Shown here: one piece after another, positions 3,088-23,647 of the stretch | Layout of the letters: every line of letters begins with the position of its first letter | Numbering within the stretch: the first letter of the stretch is position 1 | IMG/VR virus record: IMGVR_UViG_3300043446_002749 | Span: 1 to 24,092 of that record | DNA from: a virus | Direction: 5' to 3' (one strand) | DNA length: 24,092 nt | The notes under the pieces: generated by a model | Databases searched by the model: none | Told to the model about the DNA's origin: nothing | Seen by the model: the letters and a program-made list of their open reading frames with translations, nothing else | Translations under genes and position numbers: made by a program

Positions 3088-3693
3088 ATGGGGTTTATTT
3101 ACAAAATTACTAATAATGTAAATGGAAAGTTCTATGTCGGAAAAACTTCAAGAACAATAAATTGGAGGTTTTCCACTCATAAATCGGCATCTATTTCACC
3201 TAAAGATTATTTTCACAGAGCATTAAAAAAATATGGTTGTGAAAATTTTTCTATAATTTGTATTAAAGAAGTAAGAGAAGATGATGATATTGATGAACTT
3301 GAAAAACATTATATTTCTTGGTTAAATCCAGAGTATAATCTTAAAGAGGGTGGAGAAGGTGGAAGGCACTCTGATATTTCTAAACAAAAAATGAGTAAAT
3401 CGCAAAAAGGTGTGAAAAGGCATAGAACTCTTGAAGGTGAGAAAAAATGGCGAGAAAAACTATCGGAAAGTAATAAAGGAAAAAATACTTGGACTAAAAA
3501 TAAAAAATGGTGGAATAATGGTGTAGAGTGTAAATATTGCGAAAATCAACCAGATGGATTTGTTAGAGGTAGATTACCAAATCATAAAAGAGGATTAACT
3601 CCTGGTTTGGAAATAGGAACAAAATTAAATATTACAGATGATGAGAGAAAGAGAAGAAGTGAAAATCTTAAAAGAGTAAGAGGGACACTTTGA
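3088..3693 (+). CDS. GIY-YIG homing endonuclease (free-standing)
   Basis: The product has 201 residues. The N-terminal GIY-YIG nuclease domain shows FIY at 3-5, YVG at 16-18, the catalytic-type arginine R27 and the catalytic-type glutamate E72, with the family spacing. The middle (about 95-130) is a basic NUMOD3-like stretch (SKQKMSKSQKGVK, KLSESNKGK). The tail carries KKWWNNG and GFVRGRLP, as in other phage Seg-like endonucleases. It lies between gene 46 and the next block. T4 relatives are Seg and I-TevI type enzymes, which spread by cutting an empty allele. A late-promoter-like motif overlaps the end of gene 46. No intron is evident, so it is read as free-standing. The target cannot be predicted. 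Confidence 0.9.
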   Translation: MGFIYKITNNVNGKFYVGKTSRTINWRFSTHKSASISPKDYFHRALKKYGCENFSIICIKEVREDDDIDELEKHYISWLNPEYNLKEGGEGGRHSDISKQKMSKSQKGVKRHRTLEGEKKWREKLSESNKGKNTWTKNKKWWNNGVECKYCENQPDGFVRGRLPNHKRGLTPGLEIGTKLNITDDERKRRSENLKRVRGTL

Positions 3694-3755: not shown

Positions 3756-3893
3756 ATGAACACTCCAAACTGGAAGCATCACTCCAAAAAAGAACAGAAA
3801 CGAAAACTTAAACCGCAAGCACTGAGGCAAGCAAAAGCACGAAGACAAGCACTCAAGAAGCGTCTCAATCAACGAGACGCTTCTTTTTTATAA
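3756..3893 (+). CDS. small basic ORF, 45 residues
   Basis: An ATG-to-TAA frame encodes a strongly basic peptide beginning MNTPNWKHHSKKEQKRKLK and ending RLNQRDASFL. It has regular Lys/Arg/Gln helix-forming content and no hydrophobic segment. The terminator hairpin at 3856-3889 lies in its last codons, and its TAA overlaps the TATAAATA motif. A short highly charged frame can arise by chance, but the sustained basic helix and an ATG in the gap after the endonuclease make a real gene plausible. A nucleic-acid-binding role would be a guess from charge alone. No clear ribosome binding site is seen. Confidence 0.45.
   Translation: MNTPNWKHHSKKEQKRKLKPQALRQAKARRQALKKRLNQRDASFL
3856..3889 (+). terminator. 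intrinsic terminator
   Basis: An 11-bp perfect stem (AGAAGCGTCTC at 3856-3866, GAGACGCTTCT at 3874-3884) with a 7-base loop is followed by a six-T run. It closes the transcript from genes 47, 46 and the GIY-YIG gene. An exact late-promoter motif begins directly at its end. Confidence 0.85.
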
Positions 3894-3896
3894 ATA
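3889..3896 (+). promoter_or_regulatory. late promoter (exact TATAAATA)
   Basis: An exact match to the T4 gp55-dependent late promoter element lies 19 bases before the ATG at 3916, straight after a terminator. The same motif at almost the same distance (20 bases) precedes the paralogous gene at 21341. A handful of exact matches is expected by chance in this AT-rich window, so the weight comes from position and recurrence. Confidence 0.7.
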
Positions 3897-3915
3897 ACTA
3901 AAAAGTATTTGTAAA

Positions 3916-4548
3916 ATGGACGCACAAGAACTTCGCAATATTCAAGAAGCATATATGGAAGTTGTTGAAAATCAGCAACTTGATGAAGGATATAAAAGAT
4001 ACAGCAACAGAAAAGTTCATGATAAAATGGATAAGTTGAAATCAAAAGGAGATCTTGAAAGTATAGGACGCGCTGGACAAATTCGTGATAAACTTATTAA
4101 AAGGTCGTTTAGCATTCAAATCCCAGATAGAGAGGAAAAATTTAATAGAAATAAACCAGAAAAATATAAAAGAAGTAAAACAGTTTCTGATAATACTGAA
4201 AAGAAAAAGTCATTTCCAAATCGTCTAACTAGGAGTGATAGGCAAGGTATTCGTGATAGTTATGATTATTATGATGTCATCCTCTCACACCTTCTTGATG
4301 AGGGATATGCCGAAACACCAGAAGCAGCAGAAGCAATAATGGTGAGTATGAGTGAAGAGTGGAGAGAGAGTATTGTTGAAGGATTAGGTGGTGCTAAAAA
4401 TCAAGGTGATTATGAAGAAAGAGAAAAAGAAAGACAAAGAGTTCGTGATGAGCACCTACGAAAGTATAAAAGTGGAGAACTTCCTTTTCAAAAACAAAAA
4501 AAAGCAGACCAAGCACAAGAGTTCTTGAAAAAACATCCGAAAAAATGA
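3916..4548 (+). CDS. unknown late protein with putative head-targeting leader; paralogue of 21341-21715
   Basis: The 210-residue charged protein has no recognised enzymatic domain. It has three parts. Residues 1-24 (MDAQELRNIQEAYMEVVENQ then QLDE) are an amphipathic leader ending LDE|G. The middle (about 25-110) is basic. The third block around 115-155 (YDVILSHLLDEGYAETPEAA, then MSEEWRESI) recurs in many cyanophage virion-associated proteins as I remember them. T4 prohead protease gp21 cuts after Glu in L/I-x-E sites, and LDE|G at 22-24 fits, so packaging into the head is a reasonable inference but unproven. A terminator plus exact late promoter directly upstream fits a late gene. A shorter relative sits inside the split gene 41 locus, with 46 identical bases in the leader. 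Confidence 0.8.
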   Translation: MDAQELRNIQEAYMEVVENQQLDEGYKRYSNRKVHDKMDKLKSKGDLESIGRAGQIRDKLIKRSFSIQIPDREEKFNRNKPEKYKRSKTVSDNTEKKKSFPNRLTRSDRQGIRDSYDYYDVILSHLLDEGYAETPEAAEAIMVSMSEEWRESIVEGLGGAKNQGDYEEREKERQRVRDEHLRKYKSGELPFQKQKKADQAQEFLKKHPKK

Positions 4549-4626: not shown

Positions 4627-6816
4627 ATGCCTGTTCGCCACGAAATCAAATCTCAACTTGCCAAACTGCTTGCCACTGAAGATTTGGTGGTGGAGCACAA
4701 GAAGGTCTCTACTGCCTGCTTTAACGTCCATACTCGTGTTCTCACTCTTCCTTTGTGGGAGAAAGCGAGTGGACTCGTCTATGACCTTCTGGTGGGTCAT
4801 GAAGTCGGACATGCTTTGTTTTCTCCTGATGAAGACTGGAGTGAAAAGGTAAAAGTTCCACAACAGTTTGTGAATGTTGTTGAGGATGCTCGTATTGAGA
4901 AGTTGATGAAGCGCAAGTATGCTGGACTTGCGAAGACTTTCTATAATGGTTATAAAGAACTGAACGAAGACGATTTTTTTCAGATTGCTGAAGAAGATAT
5001 TTCTACCTTTAATCTTGCTGACCGAGCAAATCTGTTTTTCAAAATTGGAAATTATACTTATATTCCTATTGAAGATGGCGAAGAGCAAGAAATTATCAAT
5101 CTAATTGCAACCAGTGAAACTTTTTCTGATGTTTTGATTGCTTCTGAAGAACTTTATAAGTACTGTAAGAAACAAAAAGAACAACAGCAAAAGGTTGCTG
5201 ATTTTGATTCTCACGAAACTCAAGGAAATTCTCAGTCTGCTGGTAGTGAAACTGTAGAGACTAATGACTCCTCTTCTGAGCAAGAAGGTGGGACTGATAA
5301 CTCTCAACCGGAAGAGGGTGATGGGTCCTATGGTGGAACTGCTCAGGGAGACCAGACTCCAGTAAAATCTTCTGATGAAGAAAAAGAACCAGAAGTCCGC
5401 ACTGCTGATTCCCTTGAAGAAAAACTTCAGAGTCTTGTTGGAAATGATTTATATGAAAATAATTATGTAGAAGTTCCTCAACTCAATCTCGACACTGTTA
5501 TTGGTAAAAATTCTGAGATCCATAAGGAAATTGATAATTCCTTTACTCATCAGCAAAAACTTCACAACGAACACGCTAAAGGTAGGGGGTATACTCCAGT
5601 AAATCTTTACAAAGAATCTGATCTTGAATTTAAGAAATTTAAGTCTTCTGCTCAGAAAGAAGTAAACTATCTGGTAAAGGAGTTTGAGTGTCGTAAAGCA
5701 GCAGATCAGTATGCTCGTGCATCAACTGCTCGCACTGGTGTTCTTGATACTGCACGTCTCCATACTTACAAATACAATGAAGATCTATTTAAAAAGGTTT
5801 CTATAATTCCTGATGGTAAGAATCATGGATTGGTGTTTGTATTGGATTGGAGTGGTTCTATGCAGGATGTAATGCTTGATACTTGCAAGCAACTCTTTAA
5901 TCTAATTTGGTTCTGCAAGAAAGTTTCTATTCCTTTTGAGGTTTATGCATTCACTAATGAATGGCGTCGTGGTGAGTATGATTACGAAAACGATCGTTAT
6001 ATCGCTGCAGACCGCACTCCTCACTATGAAAAGAAAGAGAGTTTGTTAGTTGTAGACGAAACTTTTTCTATGATGAATATTCTTACCAGCAAAGTTTCTG
6101 GTAAGGAATTGGAGCACCAACTTCTTAATATTTGGCGTCTTGCTTATTGTTTTGGTAGGACTTATCAATCTCCGTATACTTATCCTAATCGCTTATCTCT
6201 TTCTGGTACTCCTCTGAATGAAGCATTGATTTCTCTTCACCAGATTCTTCCAAAGTTTCAGCGTGAAAACAAACTCCAGAAAGTTCAGTGTATCGTTCTG
6301 ACTGATGGTGAGGCAAATCAACTCACCTATCATAAAGAATTAAAAGTAAGTTGGGAAAAAGGCACTCGTCTTGGTAGTGGATATGTTAACTCATATAATA
6401 CTCTTCTTCGGGATCGTAAACTTGGAACTACCTATAAAATCAATGATGGATATCATGGATTTACTGATACTCTCCTTAATAATCTGAAAGATAAGTTTTC
6501 TTCTACAAACTTTATTGGTATTCGTGTTCTTGAAAGTCGTTATGCTCATCGTTTCATTCAACTTTATCATTCTCAACTTGATAAGCAGTATGAAAAAATC
6601 CAGAATGATTGGAAGAAACTAAAGAGTTTTACTATTACTAACTCTGGATATGACGCCTACTTTGGACTGTCTGCTACCGCACTTTCTCAAGATACTGAGT
6701 TTGAAGTTGCTGAGGACGCTTCGAAGGCGCAAATCAAATCTGCGTTTGTGAAGTCTCTAAAAACTAAGAAACTAAATAAAAAAGTATTAGGAGAATTTAT
6801 TTCTTTGGTAGCATGA
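4627..6816 (+). CDS. HExxH + von Willebrand A protein (CobT-like), partner of CobS-like ATPase
   Basis: The 729-residue protein has three zones. Residues about 1-190 contain HEVGH at 58-62 followed by VEDARIE near 86, a zinc-metallopeptidase-like arrangement. Residues about 195-270 are a low-complexity Ser/Glu/Gln/Gly linker. The C-terminal half is a VWA domain with MIDAS motif DWSGS at 407-411, a Thr in SGTPLNEAL and LTDGEA downstream. VWA proteins beside MoxR/CobS AAA+ ATPases typically act as a remodelling or chelatase pair. Cyanophage copies are usually labelled cobalamin-biosynthesis CobT. The intact HExxH is not part of the classic CobT description, so protein maturation or proteolysis is as likely as cobalt insertion. 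The ATPase gene lies three genes on. Confidence 0.85.
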   Translation: MPVRHEIKSQLAKLLATEDLVVEHKKVSTACFNVHTRVLTLPLWEKASGLVYDLLVGHEVGHALFSPDEDWSEKVKVPQQFVNVVEDARIEKLMKRKYAGLAKTFYNGYKELNEDDFFQIAEEDISTFNLADRANLFFKIGNYTYIPIEDGEEQEIINLIATSETFSDVLIASEELYKYCKKQKEQQQKVADFDSHETQGNSQSAGSETVETNDSSSEQEGGTDNSQPEEGDGSYGGTAQGDQTPVKSSDEEKEPEVRTADSLEEKLQSLVGNDLYENNYVEVPQLNLDTVIGKNSEIHKEIDNSFTHQQKLHNEHAKGRGYTPVNLYKESDLEFKKFKSSAQKEVNYLVKEFECRKAADQYARASTARTGVLDTARLHTYKYNEDLFKKVSIIPDGKNHGLVFVLDWSGSMQDVMLDTCKQLFNLIWFCKKVSIPFEVYAFTNEWRRGEYDYENDRYIAADRTPHYEKKESLLVVDETFSMMNILTSKVSGKELEHQLLNIWRLAYCFGRTYQSPYTYPNRLSLSGTPLNEALISLHQILPKFQRENKLQKVQCIVLTDGEANQLTYHKELKVSWEKGTRLGSGYVNSYNTLLRDRKLGTTYKINDGYHGFTDTLLNNLKDKFSSTNFIGIRVLESRYAHRFIQLYHSQLDKQYEKIQNDWKKLKSFTITNSGYDAYFGLSATALSQDTEFEVAEDASKAQIKSAFVKSLKTKKLNKKVLGEFISLVA

Positions 6817-7496
6817 AAACATTCCAAGAATTTACCACTGAAGCATATGGTCGTGTTCCCCGCCCAGTTCGCGGTAGGGATTATGATGACTATAAGGGAC
6901 TCAAAACAAGAATGAGTGCTGGTCTTCAACCGGGTGAAATGTTTAAAAAGAAAGAACCAAAGAAAAAGAGTGCTGCTGAAAGAATGGATGCTGCGGGTAA
7001 GAGACTTGGATTACCTGAAGAATATATTGATGAAACTTCTCTAAATAGAGTTCGTTCAAAATCAGAGAAGGGTGGAATGGCAATTATGTCTGCCCAAAGA
7101 GGAGATAAATCTAAATCAGAGAACAAAGCACGTTCAAAGCAATTAGAAAAAGATATTAGAGGTGCTGGTCTTCCAGGACCTACTAAAGTATCTGGTAGAT
7201 ATACTGAGAACCCAGGAACATCACAAGAGAAAAAAGTTGGCGAGAAATCACACGTAATCTCTTCTGGTAAAAAAGGTAAAAAAGCATTCAAGAAAGCAAT
7301 CACTAAACTTGGTAAAAAATACAATCAGGATTCCGTTCTGATTCAAAAGAAACCAAAAGGTGGTGCCCAACTGGTTGGTACTAATAAGTCTTGGCCTGGT
7401 GAAGGTAAGCGTGTTAAAGTTGGTAAAATGAATCCAGGTAAAACTGGGGAGTTTGATACTAAAGTTAAGAATAAAACATTTACTTATGAAAACTAA
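6813..7496 (+). CDS. putative internal head protein with MKTFQEF-type leader
   Basis: The 227-residue, strongly basic protein (many Lys and Gly) begins MKTFQEFTTEAYG. T4 internal head proteins IPI, IPII and IPIII begin MKTYQEFIAEA, a capsid-targeting sequence cut by gp21 after the Glu. Here the P3 residue is Thr instead of Ile, so cleavage is less certain than targeting. The middle has GLPEEYIDETSLNRVR and IRGAGLPGP. The C-terminal part ends in GKTGEFDTKVKNKTFTYEN and looks like a compact conserved domain that I recall from cyanophages without a function. Its start overlaps the previous stop as ATGA. An internal head protein ejected with DNA is my preferred reading. No catalytic motif is recognised. 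Confidence 0.75.
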   Translation: MKTFQEFTTEAYGRVPRPVRGRDYDDYKGLKTRMSAGLQPGEMFKKKEPKKKSAAERMDAAGKRLGLPEEYIDETSLNRVRSKSEKGGMAIMSAQRGDKSKSENKARSKQLEKDIRGAGLPGPTKVSGRYTENPGTSQEKKVGEKSHVISSGKKGKKAFKKAITKLGKKYNQDSVLIQKKPKGGAQLVGTNKSWPGEGKRVKVGKMNPGKTGEFDTKVKNKTFTYEN

Positions 7497-14607: not shown

Positions 14608-15087
14608 ATGTTCGGAACAAATTCAGTTACACTTTCTGTACCAGATACTGCAAAGTACTTACTAGATATTCAGAAAAATAGTATTGGAATGGATGAGTGG
14701 TTTAGGAGGTTTGATAGTGCGTTTGAGACGCATACTAATTATCCACCATATAATCTAGTAAAGGAAGATAGTATTACCTTTAGGTTGGAAATTGCTCTTG
14801 CGGGATTTAAAAAGGAAGATATTGAAGTAACTACGGAGTGGAACAAACTTTTTGTAGAAGCAAAGAAAGGTGAAAATTCTGGTGATGAGTATTTGCATCA
14901 AGGACTTGCTAAGAGAGCATTTACTCGTACTTGGACTTTATCTGATGATGTGGAAGTTAAAGATGTTTCTTTTGATGATGGGTTGCTTACTATTAAACTA
15001 AATAGAGTTATTCCAGAACATCAAAAGAAAAAGGTTTATGAAATCATTTCGGGAATTCATGCAAATAATTCGGGAGATGGAGGGTGA
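14608..15087 (+). CDS. hsp20: Hsp20 / alpha-crystallin small heat-shock protein
   Basis: The 159-residue chaperone has an N-terminal arm (1-48), then an alpha-crystallin domain from YNLVKEDSITFRLEIALAGF (about 48-67) through KEDIEVTTEWNKLFVEAKK and FTRTWTLSDDVEVKDVSFDDGLLTIKL (about 103-130). The tail is IPEHQKKKVYEI. The A-x-x-G-F-K-x-x-D-I and D-G-L-L-x-I elements are diagnostic. Hsp20 is a near-universal gene of T4-like cyanophages, thought to guard unfolding proteins during infection. It has its own promoter after a terminator and the best ribosome binding site in the window (GGAGG, six bases from ATG), implying strong expression. Confidence 0.93.
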   Translation: MFGTNSVTLSVPDTAKYLLDIQKNSIGMDEWFRRFDSAFETHTNYPPYNLVKEDSITFRLEIALAGFKKEDIEVTTEWNKLFVEAKKGENSGDEYLHQGLAKRAFTRTWTLSDDVEVKDVSFDDGLLTIKLNRVIPEHQKKKVYEIISGIHANNSGDGG

Positions 15088-15196
15088 TTTTGGAACAAAT
15101 GCAAAACCACCAAAACCAAAGTGTGGTTGGGCAGGAACTACAACATATAAAATGCTTCCTGGGAAGAAAGTTTGTAAGTTCAAAAGAAAAAGATAA
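15059..15196 (+). CDS. small basic two-cysteine ORF, 45 residues
   Basis: This frame begins at ATG 15059 (CGGGA four bases before) or ATG 15077, inside the end of hsp20. Its C-terminal part reads KPPKPKCGWAGTTTYKMLPG, then KKVCKFKRKR. The Pro/Lys-rich start, two cysteines and very basic tail are not typical of random AT-rich frames. It ends in TAA at 15194, overlapping GATAAATA. Function unknown. The overlap suggests coupling to hsp20 translation. Confidence 0.5.
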   Translation: MQIIREMEGDFGTNAKPPKPKCGWAGTTTYKMLPGKKVCKFKRKR

Positions 15197-20208: not shown

Positions 20209-20695
20209 AAAATATCCACAAGACTGGGATCATCAAAAACATCTTAAAGATTCTCAGTCTTTAGTTGATAGGGGATTTGCAGACTTGCCTGTAAGTGCTC
20301 TTCAACTTATAATGGGTGGAGTTAAAAGCAAAGAAGACTTTGTTGGAGACTCTGAAATTAGTATCAAGACTCCTGCATATGAACATCACAGTGAAATAAG
20401 AAAGATTATACGCAAGAACTTTGGAAATAGAGAATTGCACCGTTGTGGTTTTCTTTCTTTGCCTGTTGATGAAATTGTGGGGGCACATATTGATGAAGGA
20501 ACTTATTATCTAACTCGGGATAGATATCACCTTTCTATTCTTGGTAGATATCAGTATTTCTGTGGAACAGACACTGTGATTGTTGAACCAGGAACTCTTT
20601 TGTGGTTTAATAATAAATTACCTCACGGCACCGTTAATATTGGTGACGAGACTAGAATAACGTTTGTATTTGATATGCCTCATGGACAAAGTTGA
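20153..20695 (+). CDS. aspartyl/asparaginyl beta-hydroxylase-like Fe(II)/2OG dioxygenase
   Basis: The product has 180 residues from ATG 20153 ([20 protein letters not shown]). The ATG at 20132 adds seven hydrophobic residues and is less likely. The C-terminal half carries a jelly-roll signature: RCGFLSLP (97-104), H112-x-D114, RYHLSIL (124-130), PGTLLWFNNKLPHGTVN with H158, and R168 in the final strand ITFVFD. His-112, His-158 and Arg-168 suit iron and 2-oxoglutarate binding. The substrate is unknown. It overlaps both the small gene before it (56 bases) and gene 41 (14 bases), so it belongs to the uvsX-41 operon. Confidence 0.8.
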   Translation: MIKILKTKINVNKVVEQLKKYPQDWDHQKHLKDSQSLVDRGFADLPVSALQLIMGGVKSKEDFVGDSEISIKTPAYEHHSEIRKIIRKNFGNRELHRCGFLSLPVDEIVGAHIDEGTYYLTRDRYHLSILGRYQYFCGTDTVIVEPGTLLWFNNKLPHGTVNIGDETRITFVFDMPHGQS

Positions 20696-21317
20696 GTTTC
20701 TTATTCTTCGCAATCTTTTGCATAATGAAGAATATGTTCGTAAAGTAATTCCATTTCTTAAGTCAGAATATTTTGAGGATACAAATCAAAAAGTTGTATT
20801 TGAAGAAATCTTAAAGTTTATTCAAGAATACAATGAACGAGCAACAAAAGAGATTCTTTGTATTGAAGTAGAAAAGCGTCAGGATATTAATGATACTTCC
20901 TTTAAAGAAATCACTCATCTGATTGGATGTCTTGATGATGTTCCAGTAGAGTTTAATTGGCTATGTAATACTACTGAAAAGTGGTGTCGTGATCGTGCTA
21001 TCTATCTTGCACTCATGGAATCCATCCATATTGCAGATGGTGAAGATGAGAAAAAAAATCGTGATAGCATTCCAAGCATTTTGTCAGATGCATTATCAGT
21101 ATCTTTTGATACTCATATTGGTCATGACTATCTGCTAGACTATGAGCAACGTTATGAGTCTTATCACAGAAAGGAAGAGAAAATTGAATTCGACCTTGAG
21201 TACTTTAACAAAATCACAAAAGGTGGTCTACCTAATAAGACTCTCAATATCGCTCTTGCTGGTTGCGTTCACCCCGAAACCAAAGTTAAAATCAGGTTTA
21301 GGAAGTTAAAAATATAA
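20682..21317 (+). CDS. 41: gp41 helicase N-terminal part fused to a 17-residue N-intein
   Basis: The start is ATG 20682 (MDKVEFLILRNLLHNEEYVR), which aligns with T4 gp41 MVEIILSHLIFDQAYFSKVW; the in-frame ATG at 20664 is ignored. Residues 1-194 are the gp41 N-domain and linker up to NIALAG. At codon 195 the helicase stops and an intein begins: Cys195, then VHPETKVKIRFRKLKI and TAA. CVHPETKVKI is an intein block A start with the splice-site cysteine. Seventeen residues are far shorter than the about 100 of usual split N-inteins, but resemble the atypically split class (AceL-TerL, VidaL). The stop codon lies in the TATAAATA at 21313-21320. The protein must join the 22475 product to give an ATPase. 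Confidence 0.92.
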   Translation: MDKVEFLILRNLLHNEEYVRKVIPFLKSEYFEDTNQKVVFEEILKFIQEYNERATKEILCIEVEKRQDINDTSFKEITHLIGCLDDVPVEFNWLCNTTEKWCRDRAIYLALMESIHIADGEDEKKNRDSIPSILSDALSVSFDTHIGHDYLLDYEQRYESYHRKEEKIEFDLEYFNKITKGGLPNKTLNIALAGCVHPETKVKIRFRKLKI

Positions 21318-21320
21318 ATA
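21313..21320 (+). promoter_or_regulatory. late promoter (exact TATAAATA) inside the gp41-N/intein stop
   Basis: An exact late element overlaps the last codon and TAA of the gp41-N frame and lies 20 bases before ATG 21341. It can drive only the duplicated gene that follows. The distance equals, within one base, that of the paralogue at 3916. Confidence 0.7.
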
Positions 21321-21340
21321 AACTTATAGTGTAAAAAAAG

Positions 21341-21715
21341 ATGGACGCAAAAGACATCCGCAATCTACAAGAAGCATATATGGAAGTTGTTGAAAATCAG
21401 CAACTTGATGAAGCAAGAAAAAAGGTAAAAATAAAGACTAATAAACCAGTTGAATATAAGATTGCTGATATTGGACCAGGAAAGAAAGAATATAATGTAA
21501 AGACTTCCAAGGGGTGGAAAGAAGAAGTAGATATTTACGATGTCATCCTCTCACACCTTCTTGATGAAGGATATGCTGAAACCCCAGAAGCAGCAGAAGC
21601 AATTATGGTGAATATGAGTGAAGAGTGGAGAGAAGGTATTCTTGATGAGGCAAATCGTGGTGATGAATATGCAACAAGAGGTATGAGTTCTGCATCTAAG
21701 ATCTCAAAACTTTAA
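21341..21715 (+). CDS. unknown late protein between the gp41 halves; paralogue of 3916-4548
   Basis: The 124-residue protein repeats the layout of the 3916 protein but has a much shorter, different middle. The leader MDAKDIRNLQEAYMEVVENQ then QLDE|A contains the same L-x-E|small site, and the block YDVILSHLLDEGYAETPEAA with MSEEWREGIL follows. Bases 21368-21413 are identical to 3943-3988 (46 in a row), so the duplication is recent or kept by gene conversion. It is a late, possibly head-packaged protein riding inside a broken early gene. Its stop is followed by 51 bases and then the 3' end of the reverse HNH gene. I see no catalytic motif. Confidence 0.8.
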   Translation: MDAKDIRNLQEAYMEVVENQQLDEARKKVKIKTNKPVEYKIADIGPGKKEYNVKTSKGWKEEVDIYDVILSHLLDEGYAETPEAAEAIMVNMSEEWREGILDEANRGDEYATRGMSSASKISKL

Positions 21716-21766: not shown

Positions 21767-22435
21767 TTAATTGTTATTTCTAACTTTGGAATTTGGTGCA
21801 GGTTCTCCTGTTCCAAATTTCCAACCTTCATTTAACTTCATATCAACATCTTCTGGAAGTATTCTTTTCCATCCTTTTGTTCCTGGTAAGTGCATTACTT
21901 TCTTACCTTTGTGTGCTTTTCCTCCAAGAGATGCTCTTTCTTGTCTTCCTTGATTGGATGCCCAGTAATTAAACTCTTTGGATGCTCTCTTTTTTCCTCC
22001 AAGAGATGCTCTTTCTTTTCTACCTTCTTCTGTGCTCCAATAATAAAAATTTTTAACTTTGTCATTTAAATATTCTTGTTTTTGAGTTTCTATTCCTCTA
22101 ATCATCCATTCCTTTCTTTCTTCTACTGGAATTGAAAAGAAACCAATTTGATTGTCCCTACAAAATTCTCCAATTATTTTTCTATGTTGTGTTGATAAAT
22201 TCGCATCTAACATTTTCATAGATCTTAAATCATTTGGATTTTTATAAATCTTCCAAAGTAAATAATGTGCTATGATATGTTCTCTAACATTCAAGTATGT
22301 AAGGTTGCAATCATCATCTGTTCCTCCCATATGTTTAGGAACAATATGATGTTCGTGCAATCCTGAATATTTTTTGTAATCTTCTTTTCTTGACTTATTA
22401 CCCTCACATAGGTTAGAATAGATACGATCAAACAT
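21767..22435 (-). CDS. HNH homing endonuclease, reverse strand, between intein halves
   Basis: This 222-residue protein is the only reverse gene. The HNH core is LHEHHIVPKHMGG (26-38) with H29/H30, N44 and REHIIAH (51-57), a beta-beta-alpha metal fold of phage type. Two copies of YW..(E/N)(E/Q)GR.ERASLGGK lie at 132-148 and 157-173 (a tandem NUMOD-like DNA-contact unit, also visible as a repeated DNA block near 21928 and 22001). The tail has GWKRILPEDVDMKLNEGWKF. It has an exact late promoter 27 bases upstream. It presumably cuts an intein-less or unsplit gene 41 allele, but the site is not identifiable from this window. AGGG just before the ATG may serve as ribosome binding site. Confidence 0.9.
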   Translation of the reverse strand: MFDRIYSNLCEGNKSRKEDYKKYSGLHEHHIVPKHMGGTDDDCNLTYLNVREHIIAHYLLWKIYKNPNDLRSMKMLDANLSTQHRKIIGEFCRDNQIGFFSIPVEERKEWMIRGIETQKQEYLNDKVKNFYYWSTEEGRKERASLGGKKRASKEFNYWASNQGRQERASLGGKAHKGKKVMHLPGTKGWKRILPEDVDMKLNEGWKFGTGEPAPNSKVRNNN

Positions 22436-22474: not shown

Positions 22475-23647
22475 ATGTGGATTGAAAAAGAAACATCAAT
22501 TGCTGAAATCAAAACATTACTTGATAATGGATATGAGGTAGAAGTTGATTCGCCCGATGGATATGTTCCAGTCAATTTCTTTATCAACAAAGGAATGTAT
22601 GATGAATATGTTTTAAAGGTTGATGGTGGAGAACCTGTGAGATGTAATGCCGATCATTTATTTGAAACGTCTTTTGGATGGATGAAAGCATCTCATCTTT
22701 ATGAAAAATACAAGACAAATCATTTTCTAACAAAAAATGGTTATAAACTTGGAAGTGTCTTTAAGACAGGAAATCAAATACCTATTGTTGATATTAATGT
22801 AAATCATCCAAATCATAGGTATTATACTAATGGTGTTTCCTCCCATAATACTGGTGTAGGTAAATCCTTGTTTATGTGCCATGTTGCTGCTTCCGTCTTA
22901 CTGCAAGGCAGGAACGTTCTGTACATCACTCTTGAAATGGCGGAAGAGCGAATTGCAGAGCGAATTGACGCAAACCTTCTCAATGTCCCGATTCAGGATA
23001 TTGCGGAACTTCCGAAGCAGATGTTTGAGAATAAAGTAACAAACCTTTCAAAGAAAACTCAAGGTACATTAATTATCAAAGAGTACCCAACTGCTTCTGC
23101 TCATGCTGGTCACTTCAAGTCTCTCTTGAATGAACTTGCTTTGAAGAAATCTTTCAAACCAGATATTATCTTTATTGACTATCTGAATATCTGTGCGTCT
23201 TCAAGATATCGTGGAAATAGTAATATTAACTCATACACTTTTGTTAAGTCTATTGCTGAAGAACTCCGTGGTCTTGCTGTTGAGTTTAATGTTCCTATTG
23301 TAAGTGCTACTCAGACAACTCGTTCTGGTTATGGTTCTTCCGATGTTGAACTTACTGATACTTCTGAGTCCTTTGGTCTTCCTGCTACTGCTGACCTCAT
23401 GTTCGCCCTTATTAGCACTGAAGAGTTGGAAGAGTTGGGGCAGATTCTTGTAAAACAACTTAAGAATCGCTATAATGATCCTACCATCCATAAACGTTTT
23501 GTGATTGGCATTGACAGAGCAAAAATGAGACTATATGATTGTGAACAGTCTGCTCAAAATGATATCCTTGACAATGGAAATGAAGAAGAGTATGATTATC
23601 ACAAAGAAAACAAACCTAAAAAAACATTTGAAGGATTTAAATTCTAA
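22475..23647 (+). CDS. 41: C-intein (125 residues) fused to gp41 helicase C-terminal part
   Basis: An in-frame TAA at 22454 shows that this part has its own start. Residues 1-125 are the C-intein: MWIEKETSIAEIK opens it, block B is near 51-75 (GGEPVRCNADHLFETS, His61; the usual TxxH is NxxH here), and block F runs from VDINVNHPNHRYYTNGVSS to H124-N125. The next residue, Thr126, is the splice nucleophile, and the helicase resumes as TGVGKSLFMCH. Joined to the N-part this gives AGTGVGKS, a whole Walker A. Later features are YITLEMAEERIAERIDANLL and DIIFIDYLNI (Walker B). The C-extein is 265 residues; 194+265=459 against 475 in T4. Base composition shifts: 22741-22800 16/60 G+C, 22921-22980 28/60. 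Confidence 0.93.
   Translation: MWIEKETSIAEIKTLLDNGYEVEVDSPDGYVPVNFFINKGMYDEYVLKVDGGEPVRCNADHLFETSFGWMKASHLYEKYKTNHFLTKNGYKLGSVFKTGNQIPIVDINVNHPNHRYYTNGVSSHNTGVGKSLFMCHVAASVLLQGRNVLYITLEMAEERIAERIDANLLNVPIQDIAELPKQMFENKVTNLSKKTQGTLIIKEYPTASAHAGHFKSLLNELALKKSFKPDIIFIDYLNICASSRYRGNSNINSYTFVKSIAEELRGLAVEFNVPIVSATQTTRSGYGSSDVELTDTSESFGLPATADLMFALISTEELEELGQILVKQLKNRYNDPTIHKRFVIGIDRAKMRLYDCEQSAQNDILDNGNEEEYDYHKENKPKKTFEGFKF

Follow-up and report, generated by a model that had tools for sequence, protein, structure and literature searches.

We consider it likely that the two leader-bearing genes described here encode precursors of small internal head proteins, in which the leader would target the polypeptide to the prohead and a gp21-type protease would free the basic cargo. 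Since the cargo is placed right after a putative head-protease cut site, the 46-bp repeat shared by the two genes is best understood as belonging to a tag by which changeable cargo is brought into the virus head. The genes lie on a virus fragment of 24,092 bases, analyzed in full (the window), at positions 3916-4548 (210 aa, copy 1) and 21341-21715 (124 aa, copy 2), both on the + strand. The closest relatives of the fragment are T4-like cyanophages of the Kyanoviridae (best match S-SRM01, 77% over 30%), and it carries a replication module composed of gp47, gp46, gp45, gp44, gp62, regA, gp43, uvsX, and gp41, some of these names having been assigned by reading translations.

Bases 3943-3988 and 21368-21413 are identical at 46 of 46 positions, as originally predicted; the match ends at both flanks and translates to EAYMEVVENQQLDE in both late-promoter genes. 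A chance origin of an exact 46-mer within 24 kb is negligible. An 85-nt block around the repeat shows 87% identity (3913-3997 and 21338-21422), and YDVILSHLLDEGYAETPEAA is found in both genes. The prediction had also proposed a second conserved block and an exact late promoter for both genes, and the two features are borne out: the block extends over 116 nt with 91% identity (4264-4379 and 21530-21645), and TATAAATA lies 19 and 20 bases ahead of the two ATGs. The accompanying picture of a conserved leader and tail around a changing middle holds as far as the conserved blocks are concerned, but must be amended in one respect. The middles of the two genes are unrelated and the segments 3′ of the second block differ too; therefore, there are two variable slots and not one, the second being located after the supposed tail. 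The coordinates of these parts are collected in the table.

Table. Features of the window relevant to the two leader genes.
Feature	Position	Strand	Basis or remark
GIY-YIG homing endonuclease gene	3088-3693		adjoins copy 1
Late promoter TATAAATA, copy 1	3889-3896	+	exact match; family-wide ATAAATA enrichment
Copy 1 leader MDAQELRNIQEAYMEVVENQQLDE, acidic, predicted helix, LDE end; holds repeat 3943-3988	3916-3987	+	helix modelled on copy 2
Copy 1 cargo 1 (GYKRYSNRK...)	3988-4269	+	common to L014, L053, L075, L084, L086
Copy 1 second block YDVILSHLLDEGYAETPEAAEAIMVSMSEEWRESIVE, ends in IVE cut motif	4270-4380	+	sequence
Copy 1 cargo 2 (GLGGAKNQ...KHPKK) and stop	4381-4548	+	first-slot module in L076, L122
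SAM lyase-family domain preceded by IDE, behind MKTFQEFTTEA start (related design)	6813-7496	+	Pfam PF23780, E 4.4e-17
Late promoter TATAAATA, copy 2	21313-21320	+	exact match
Copy 2 leader MDAKDIRNLQEAYMEVVENQQLDE; holds repeat 21368-21413	21341-21412	+	sequence, model
Copy 2 cargo 1 (ARKKVKIKTNKPVEYKIADIGPGKKEYNV...; KKVKIKT...)	21413-21535	+	second-slot module in L019, L088
Copy 2 second block YDVILSHLLDEGYAETPEAAEAIMVNMSEEWREGILDE, three predicted helices, LDE end	21536-21649	+	sequence, model
Copy 2 short C-terminal segment (ANRGDEYATRG...) and stop	21650-21715	+	sequence
HNH-like homing endonuclease gene	21767-22435	-	adjoins copy 2

Neither window protein matched Pfam above the cut-off, and Pfam and PHROG gave weak or unknown-function matches only. 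The AlphaFold2 model of copy 2 is weak overall (mean pLDDT 62.9). In it, the leader forms a helix, the cargo has no structure, and the second block is helical with a pLDDT of about 80; the model had no convincing match in the PDB (best E = 2 by fold and 0.77 by profile). When the 29-aa leader alone was used as a tblastn query, no match was found among isolate phages; therefore, whole proteins and profiles were used for searching. A scan of viral contigs returned 436 stretches related to copy 2, and each of 12 large contigs holds from one to five copies of the second block. From the fetched loci (the L-numbered relatives) we extracted 99 distinct proteins, whose layout is an acidic leader ending in (L/I)xE, a basic cargo 1, an acidic helical block ending in IxE, and an optional basic cargo 2. 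The leader terminates with QQLDE in both window copies and in most relatives, while a few family members have no [LI]xE after the leader (e.g., VVMNE followed by GLGGA). The mean charge is -5.0 for the leader and -8.2 for the second block, both being acidic in 66 of 66 well-delimited proteins; cargo 1 (+8.2) is basic in all 66 and cargo 2 (+8.5) in 32 of 32, a charge that suits association with DNA. An ATAAATA element is present at most 60 nt upstream of 76 of 80 leader genes, mostly at -26/-27, as compared to 33% of control ORFs, and this supports late expression of the leader genes. We also considered the LLDE found inside the second block as an extra cut site and rejected it: distant relatives do not conserve its leucine (LYAE, LQSE, LVTE) and the element is more likely structural.

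The T4 prohead protease gp21 cleaves C-terminal to L/I-X-E (PMC9026906). Cargo modules occurring in varied slots and proteins start directly behind [LIVM]xE. AEGSYG modules are preceded by [LI]xE in 19 of 19 distinct contexts and MKDF modules in 40 of 44, with VxE in the other 4, in a search that set no requirement on the residues of the cut motif; the background frequency is 1.6% of positions. These contexts comprise the EAY leader, the second block, internal joints, and starts resembling the T4 capsid targeting sequence (CTS; MKTFQEFMEIAE followed by GMTMKDF), and the joints have in common [LI] at P3, E at P1, and little else. The second block itself ends in the cut motif in all 47 cases with cargo behind it and in none of the 37 without, which end in IIG, ILG, IVG or similar; here as in the other counts, the family sequences are related and do not represent independent trials. 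Inside the cargo, [LI]xE was seen 7 times against 21.1 expected (0/1000 shuffles), most of the 7 being at segment edges, while control motifs such as [LI]xD are not depleted. The replication proteins of the window show no avoidance (60 seen, 61.2 expected). In cyanophage gp22 scaffolds the motif is enriched (33 seen, 13.7 expected); the T4 counterpart of these scaffolds is fragmented by the protease. Virion enzymes bearing a CTS show no significant depletion (16 versus 19.1 expected), perhaps due to protection of the sites by folded domains. As for the enzyme, a Peptidase_S77 (gp21 family) is encoded in 5 of 7 records with leader genes, the other two of which may be fragments; no prohead protease gene is visible on the window fragment, which covers part of the genome. 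Taken together, the placement of the modules, the ends of the second block, the avoidance of sites, and the swaps at fixed loci described below suggest that the (L/I)xE sites at the joints work as cut sites.

Cleavage at this motif also occurs in T4 core proteins, and an acidic, helical character is common to the leader and the second block. The proteins could thus be accessory prohead core components like T4 gp67/gp68, whose acidic parts build the core and which are digested as a whole and for the most part lost, the middle being drifting filler. We hold this to be unlikely, considering that the cargo avoids the cut sites in which scaffolds are enriched, is uniformly basic and, unlike filler, consists of distinct modules conserved across phages and slots.

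The cargo segments form 39 single-linkage families, 7 of which have members in the first as well as the second slot, and the two window copies are themselves involved in this swapping of modules between slots. Furthermore, two fixed loci have orthologous flanking genes and different cargo. The first (gp46, a small gene, the leader gene, and a phrog_459 peptidase-like gene) was found in more than 12 contigs, while the second, inside an interrupted gp41, is present in the window and in L144, L005, and L059. L005 carries the module AREDE(D/G)LTPLQKIRKRNK at the gp41 locus, and L008 carries it at the gp46 locus. At the DNA level, synonymous codons of the leader and second block match between phages far beyond the codon-usage expectation. 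This agreement exceeds that of adjacent conserved genes of the same phages in 36 of 36 comparisons, all in the same direction, from which three loci representing the window itself were excluded and in which several of the remaining loci are near-duplicates. The pattern fits recombination through the leader and second block; alternatively, selection acting on the codons of strongly expressed late genes may account for it.

The leader resembles a removable propeptide, and the second block looks more like an acidic spacer carrying a second cut site than a targeting element. We propose, more tentatively, that cyanomyoviruses practise a combinatorial delivery, which is quite conceivable although we would not insist on it: heads would carry several short basic effectors, freed by the head protease from one- or two-cargo precursors, and the DNA of the leader and second block would serve as recombination handles that reshuffle the effectors between slots, between loci, and across lineages, an arms race with the host being the probable setting.

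Both copies had also been said to lie near homing endonuclease genes. This is correct for the window, where GIY-YIG and HNH-like genes are the neighbours, but it is not general in the family: in a survey of GIY-YIG genes over the 12 large contigs, 0 of the 6 above the cut-off adjoin a strong leader gene. Away from the gp41 locus, the link with homing endonucleases is incidental. The two neighbouring endonuclease genes, together with the 46 identical bases and the high synonymous identity of the blocks, would be expected from a recent duplication with gene conversion, the products being ordinary cytosolic late proteins whose leader and second block have no common function. We judge such an origin very improbable, given that hundreds of phages carry members of the family and that the GIY-YIG genes surveyed are not associated with strong leader genes; moreover, duplication leaves the placement and the avoidance of the sites unexplained, and one homologue is labelled as a virion protein (see below).

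The gp41 helicase gene of the window is interrupted, with halves at 20664-21317 and 22475-23647, and copy 2 and the HNH-like gene sit between them. The first half ends with GCVHPETKVKIRFRKLKI and a stop, while the second opens with about 120 residues ending in ..YYTNGVSSHN, after which the helicase resumes; the interruption has the appearance of a split intein whose N-part is very short. In L018, L059, and L080, gp41 C-terminal sequence flanks a leader gene on either side, which suggests a further gp41 interruption enclosing a leader gene.

Evidence from virions comes from two relatives. ORF89 is the only S-SCSM1 protein with leader and second block; it has two cargos and is labelled as a virion protein in the deposited annotation. 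The accessible text of the S-SCSM1 study reports 45 virion proteins detected by mass spectrometry and names ORF91 (NMNAT) among those detected (PMC9602691); ORF91 sits two genes beyond ORF89 and starts with MKSFLQFLKEA. The virion proteins of S-CREM2 detected by mass spectrometry include a SAM hydrolase, gp13, an APH-like kinase, and a cytidylyltransferase (PMC10665884), which start with MKDFDSFLEE, MKDLHSFLTE, VKRFDAFLTE, and MKNFSSFLTE, respectively. In the 69 kb of S-CREM2 scanned, these four are the only matches to the CTS-like pattern and all four are in the virion table; in S-SCSM1, one of two matches carries the virion label. The authors of the proteome studies caution that such proteins might be co-purified and not packaged (PMC9602691, PMC10665884). 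The occurrence of CTS-like starts on virion proteins of S-CREM2 and S-SCSM1 indicates that T4-type targeting leaders probably operate in cyanophages, and these starts have cargo modules in common with the EAY leader. The expectation of targeting tags on swapped cargo is therefore sustained by a leader and second block common to hundreds of relatives with cargo varying even at the same locus, by modules joined at prohead-protease motifs, by late-type promoters in 76 of 80 genes, and by the virion label of the S-SCSM1 homologue. Least probable in our judgement is that the leader and second block are docking tags for another complex (e.g., the tail or host machinery) with the LxE boundaries as convenient acidic linkers: packaging by the leader is a prediction from sequence and the second block is a small helical unit lacking a convincing PDB match, but the joints carry [LI] at P3 and E at P1, the T4 protease motif, [LI]xD is not avoided in cargo, and the modules are exchanged with proteins whose start resembles the T4 CTS.

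For internal head proteins processed at the joints, the following course of events can be envisaged. The acidic helical leader propeptide would bring the precursor into the prohead core, where a gp21-type prohead protease would cut after the (L/I)xE at the leader end and, where a second cargo is present, once more behind the second block. This would release one or two cargos, small, basic, and for the most part unstructured, which would stay with the packaged DNA in the head and probably enter the host along with it. Leader and second block would act as constant handles, between which cargo modules would be exchanged by recombination within and between phages. The cargos may serve in anti-defence, takeover, or DNA condensation; comparison with T4 IPI (PMC3012670) suggests anti-defence roles for some of them.

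The best reading of the family is a two-slot extension of the capsid-targeting-sequence/internal-protein system of T4. As in T4 IPI, IPII, IPIII, and Alt (CTS, gp21), there is a short N-terminal leader ending in (L/I)xE (PMC9026906, PMC3012670), and the two systems share variable basic cargo behind a conserved leader, a gp21-family protease, and late expression, here deduced from sequence. However, the EAYxxV leader (about 24 residues, acidic) does not fit M-K-x-[FY]-x-x-F-x-x-E, although CTS-like starts do occur in the window gene at 6813 and in the four S-CREM2 virion proteins. Beyond the T4 system, the family has a further conserved acidic block, and some of its proteins carry a second cargo with a separate cut site; modules also move between slots and proteins. 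The enzymes reported by mass spectrometry in S-CREM2 and S-SCSM1 virions (NMNAT/cytidylyltransferase, SAM hydrolase, APH-like kinase), with T4-CTS-like MKxFxxF(L)xE starts, are single folded enzymes behind this other leader type and not two-slot chimaeras, although modules are common to both leader types. The inner-head (ejection) proteins of phiKZ and SPN3US are likewise paralogues located in the head, and a prohead protease removes their propeptides; in the accessible text (PMC5694885), these propeptides exceed 100 residues, the cut motif is another, and no second slot or similar module exchange is described. Polyvalent proteins, such as phage P1 DdrB and the N4 virion RNA polymerase, are also multi-module polypeptides delivered with the DNA and separated by proteolysis (PMC5512222), but they are large proteins containing enzymatic domains and in many cases a metallopeptidase of their own, whereas the modules seen here are short, basic, mostly unannotated, and without a peptidase. 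In the literature searched, mostly from outside the subscription journals, we found no prior description of the two-slot system, which is weak evidence of novelty.

If this reading is true, a large set of unannotated, fast-changing cyanophage genes becomes one readable system, in which the leader or the LxE boundary marks what may be loaded into the head and exact new N-termini in virions are predicted. It would also provide a natural collection of candidates for injected proteins that act on cyanobacteria, suggest a DNA-level route of module swapping, and add a second, sequence-distinct leader to set beside the T4 capsid targeting sequence.

A few further observations concern CTS-like starts and shared modules. 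The protein encoded at 6813-7496 has TTE, and not LxE, at position 10 of its T4-CTS-like start; proteins of L220 and L241 have a similar start and the same GK(R/K)LGLPE stretch, followed by an MKDF module instead. A 52-aa ORF at 15038-15196 starts with MKSFREFMQIIREMEG, reminiscent of a capsid-targeting start. S-CREM2 gp12 (L273), a Cas9-like nuclease of the virion proteome, has FASFMAEA near its N-terminus, like an extended capsid-targeting leader. Finally, the module YKGKHGQS..EYxDSRSxGGKMVSGxSKMSGAEYTHGRRVKA is found at differing positions in unlike proteins of S-SCSM1, S-IOM18, S-SM2, and RN05-S (L089, L157, L158, L159), and ORF89, which bears it, matches 246 phage records.
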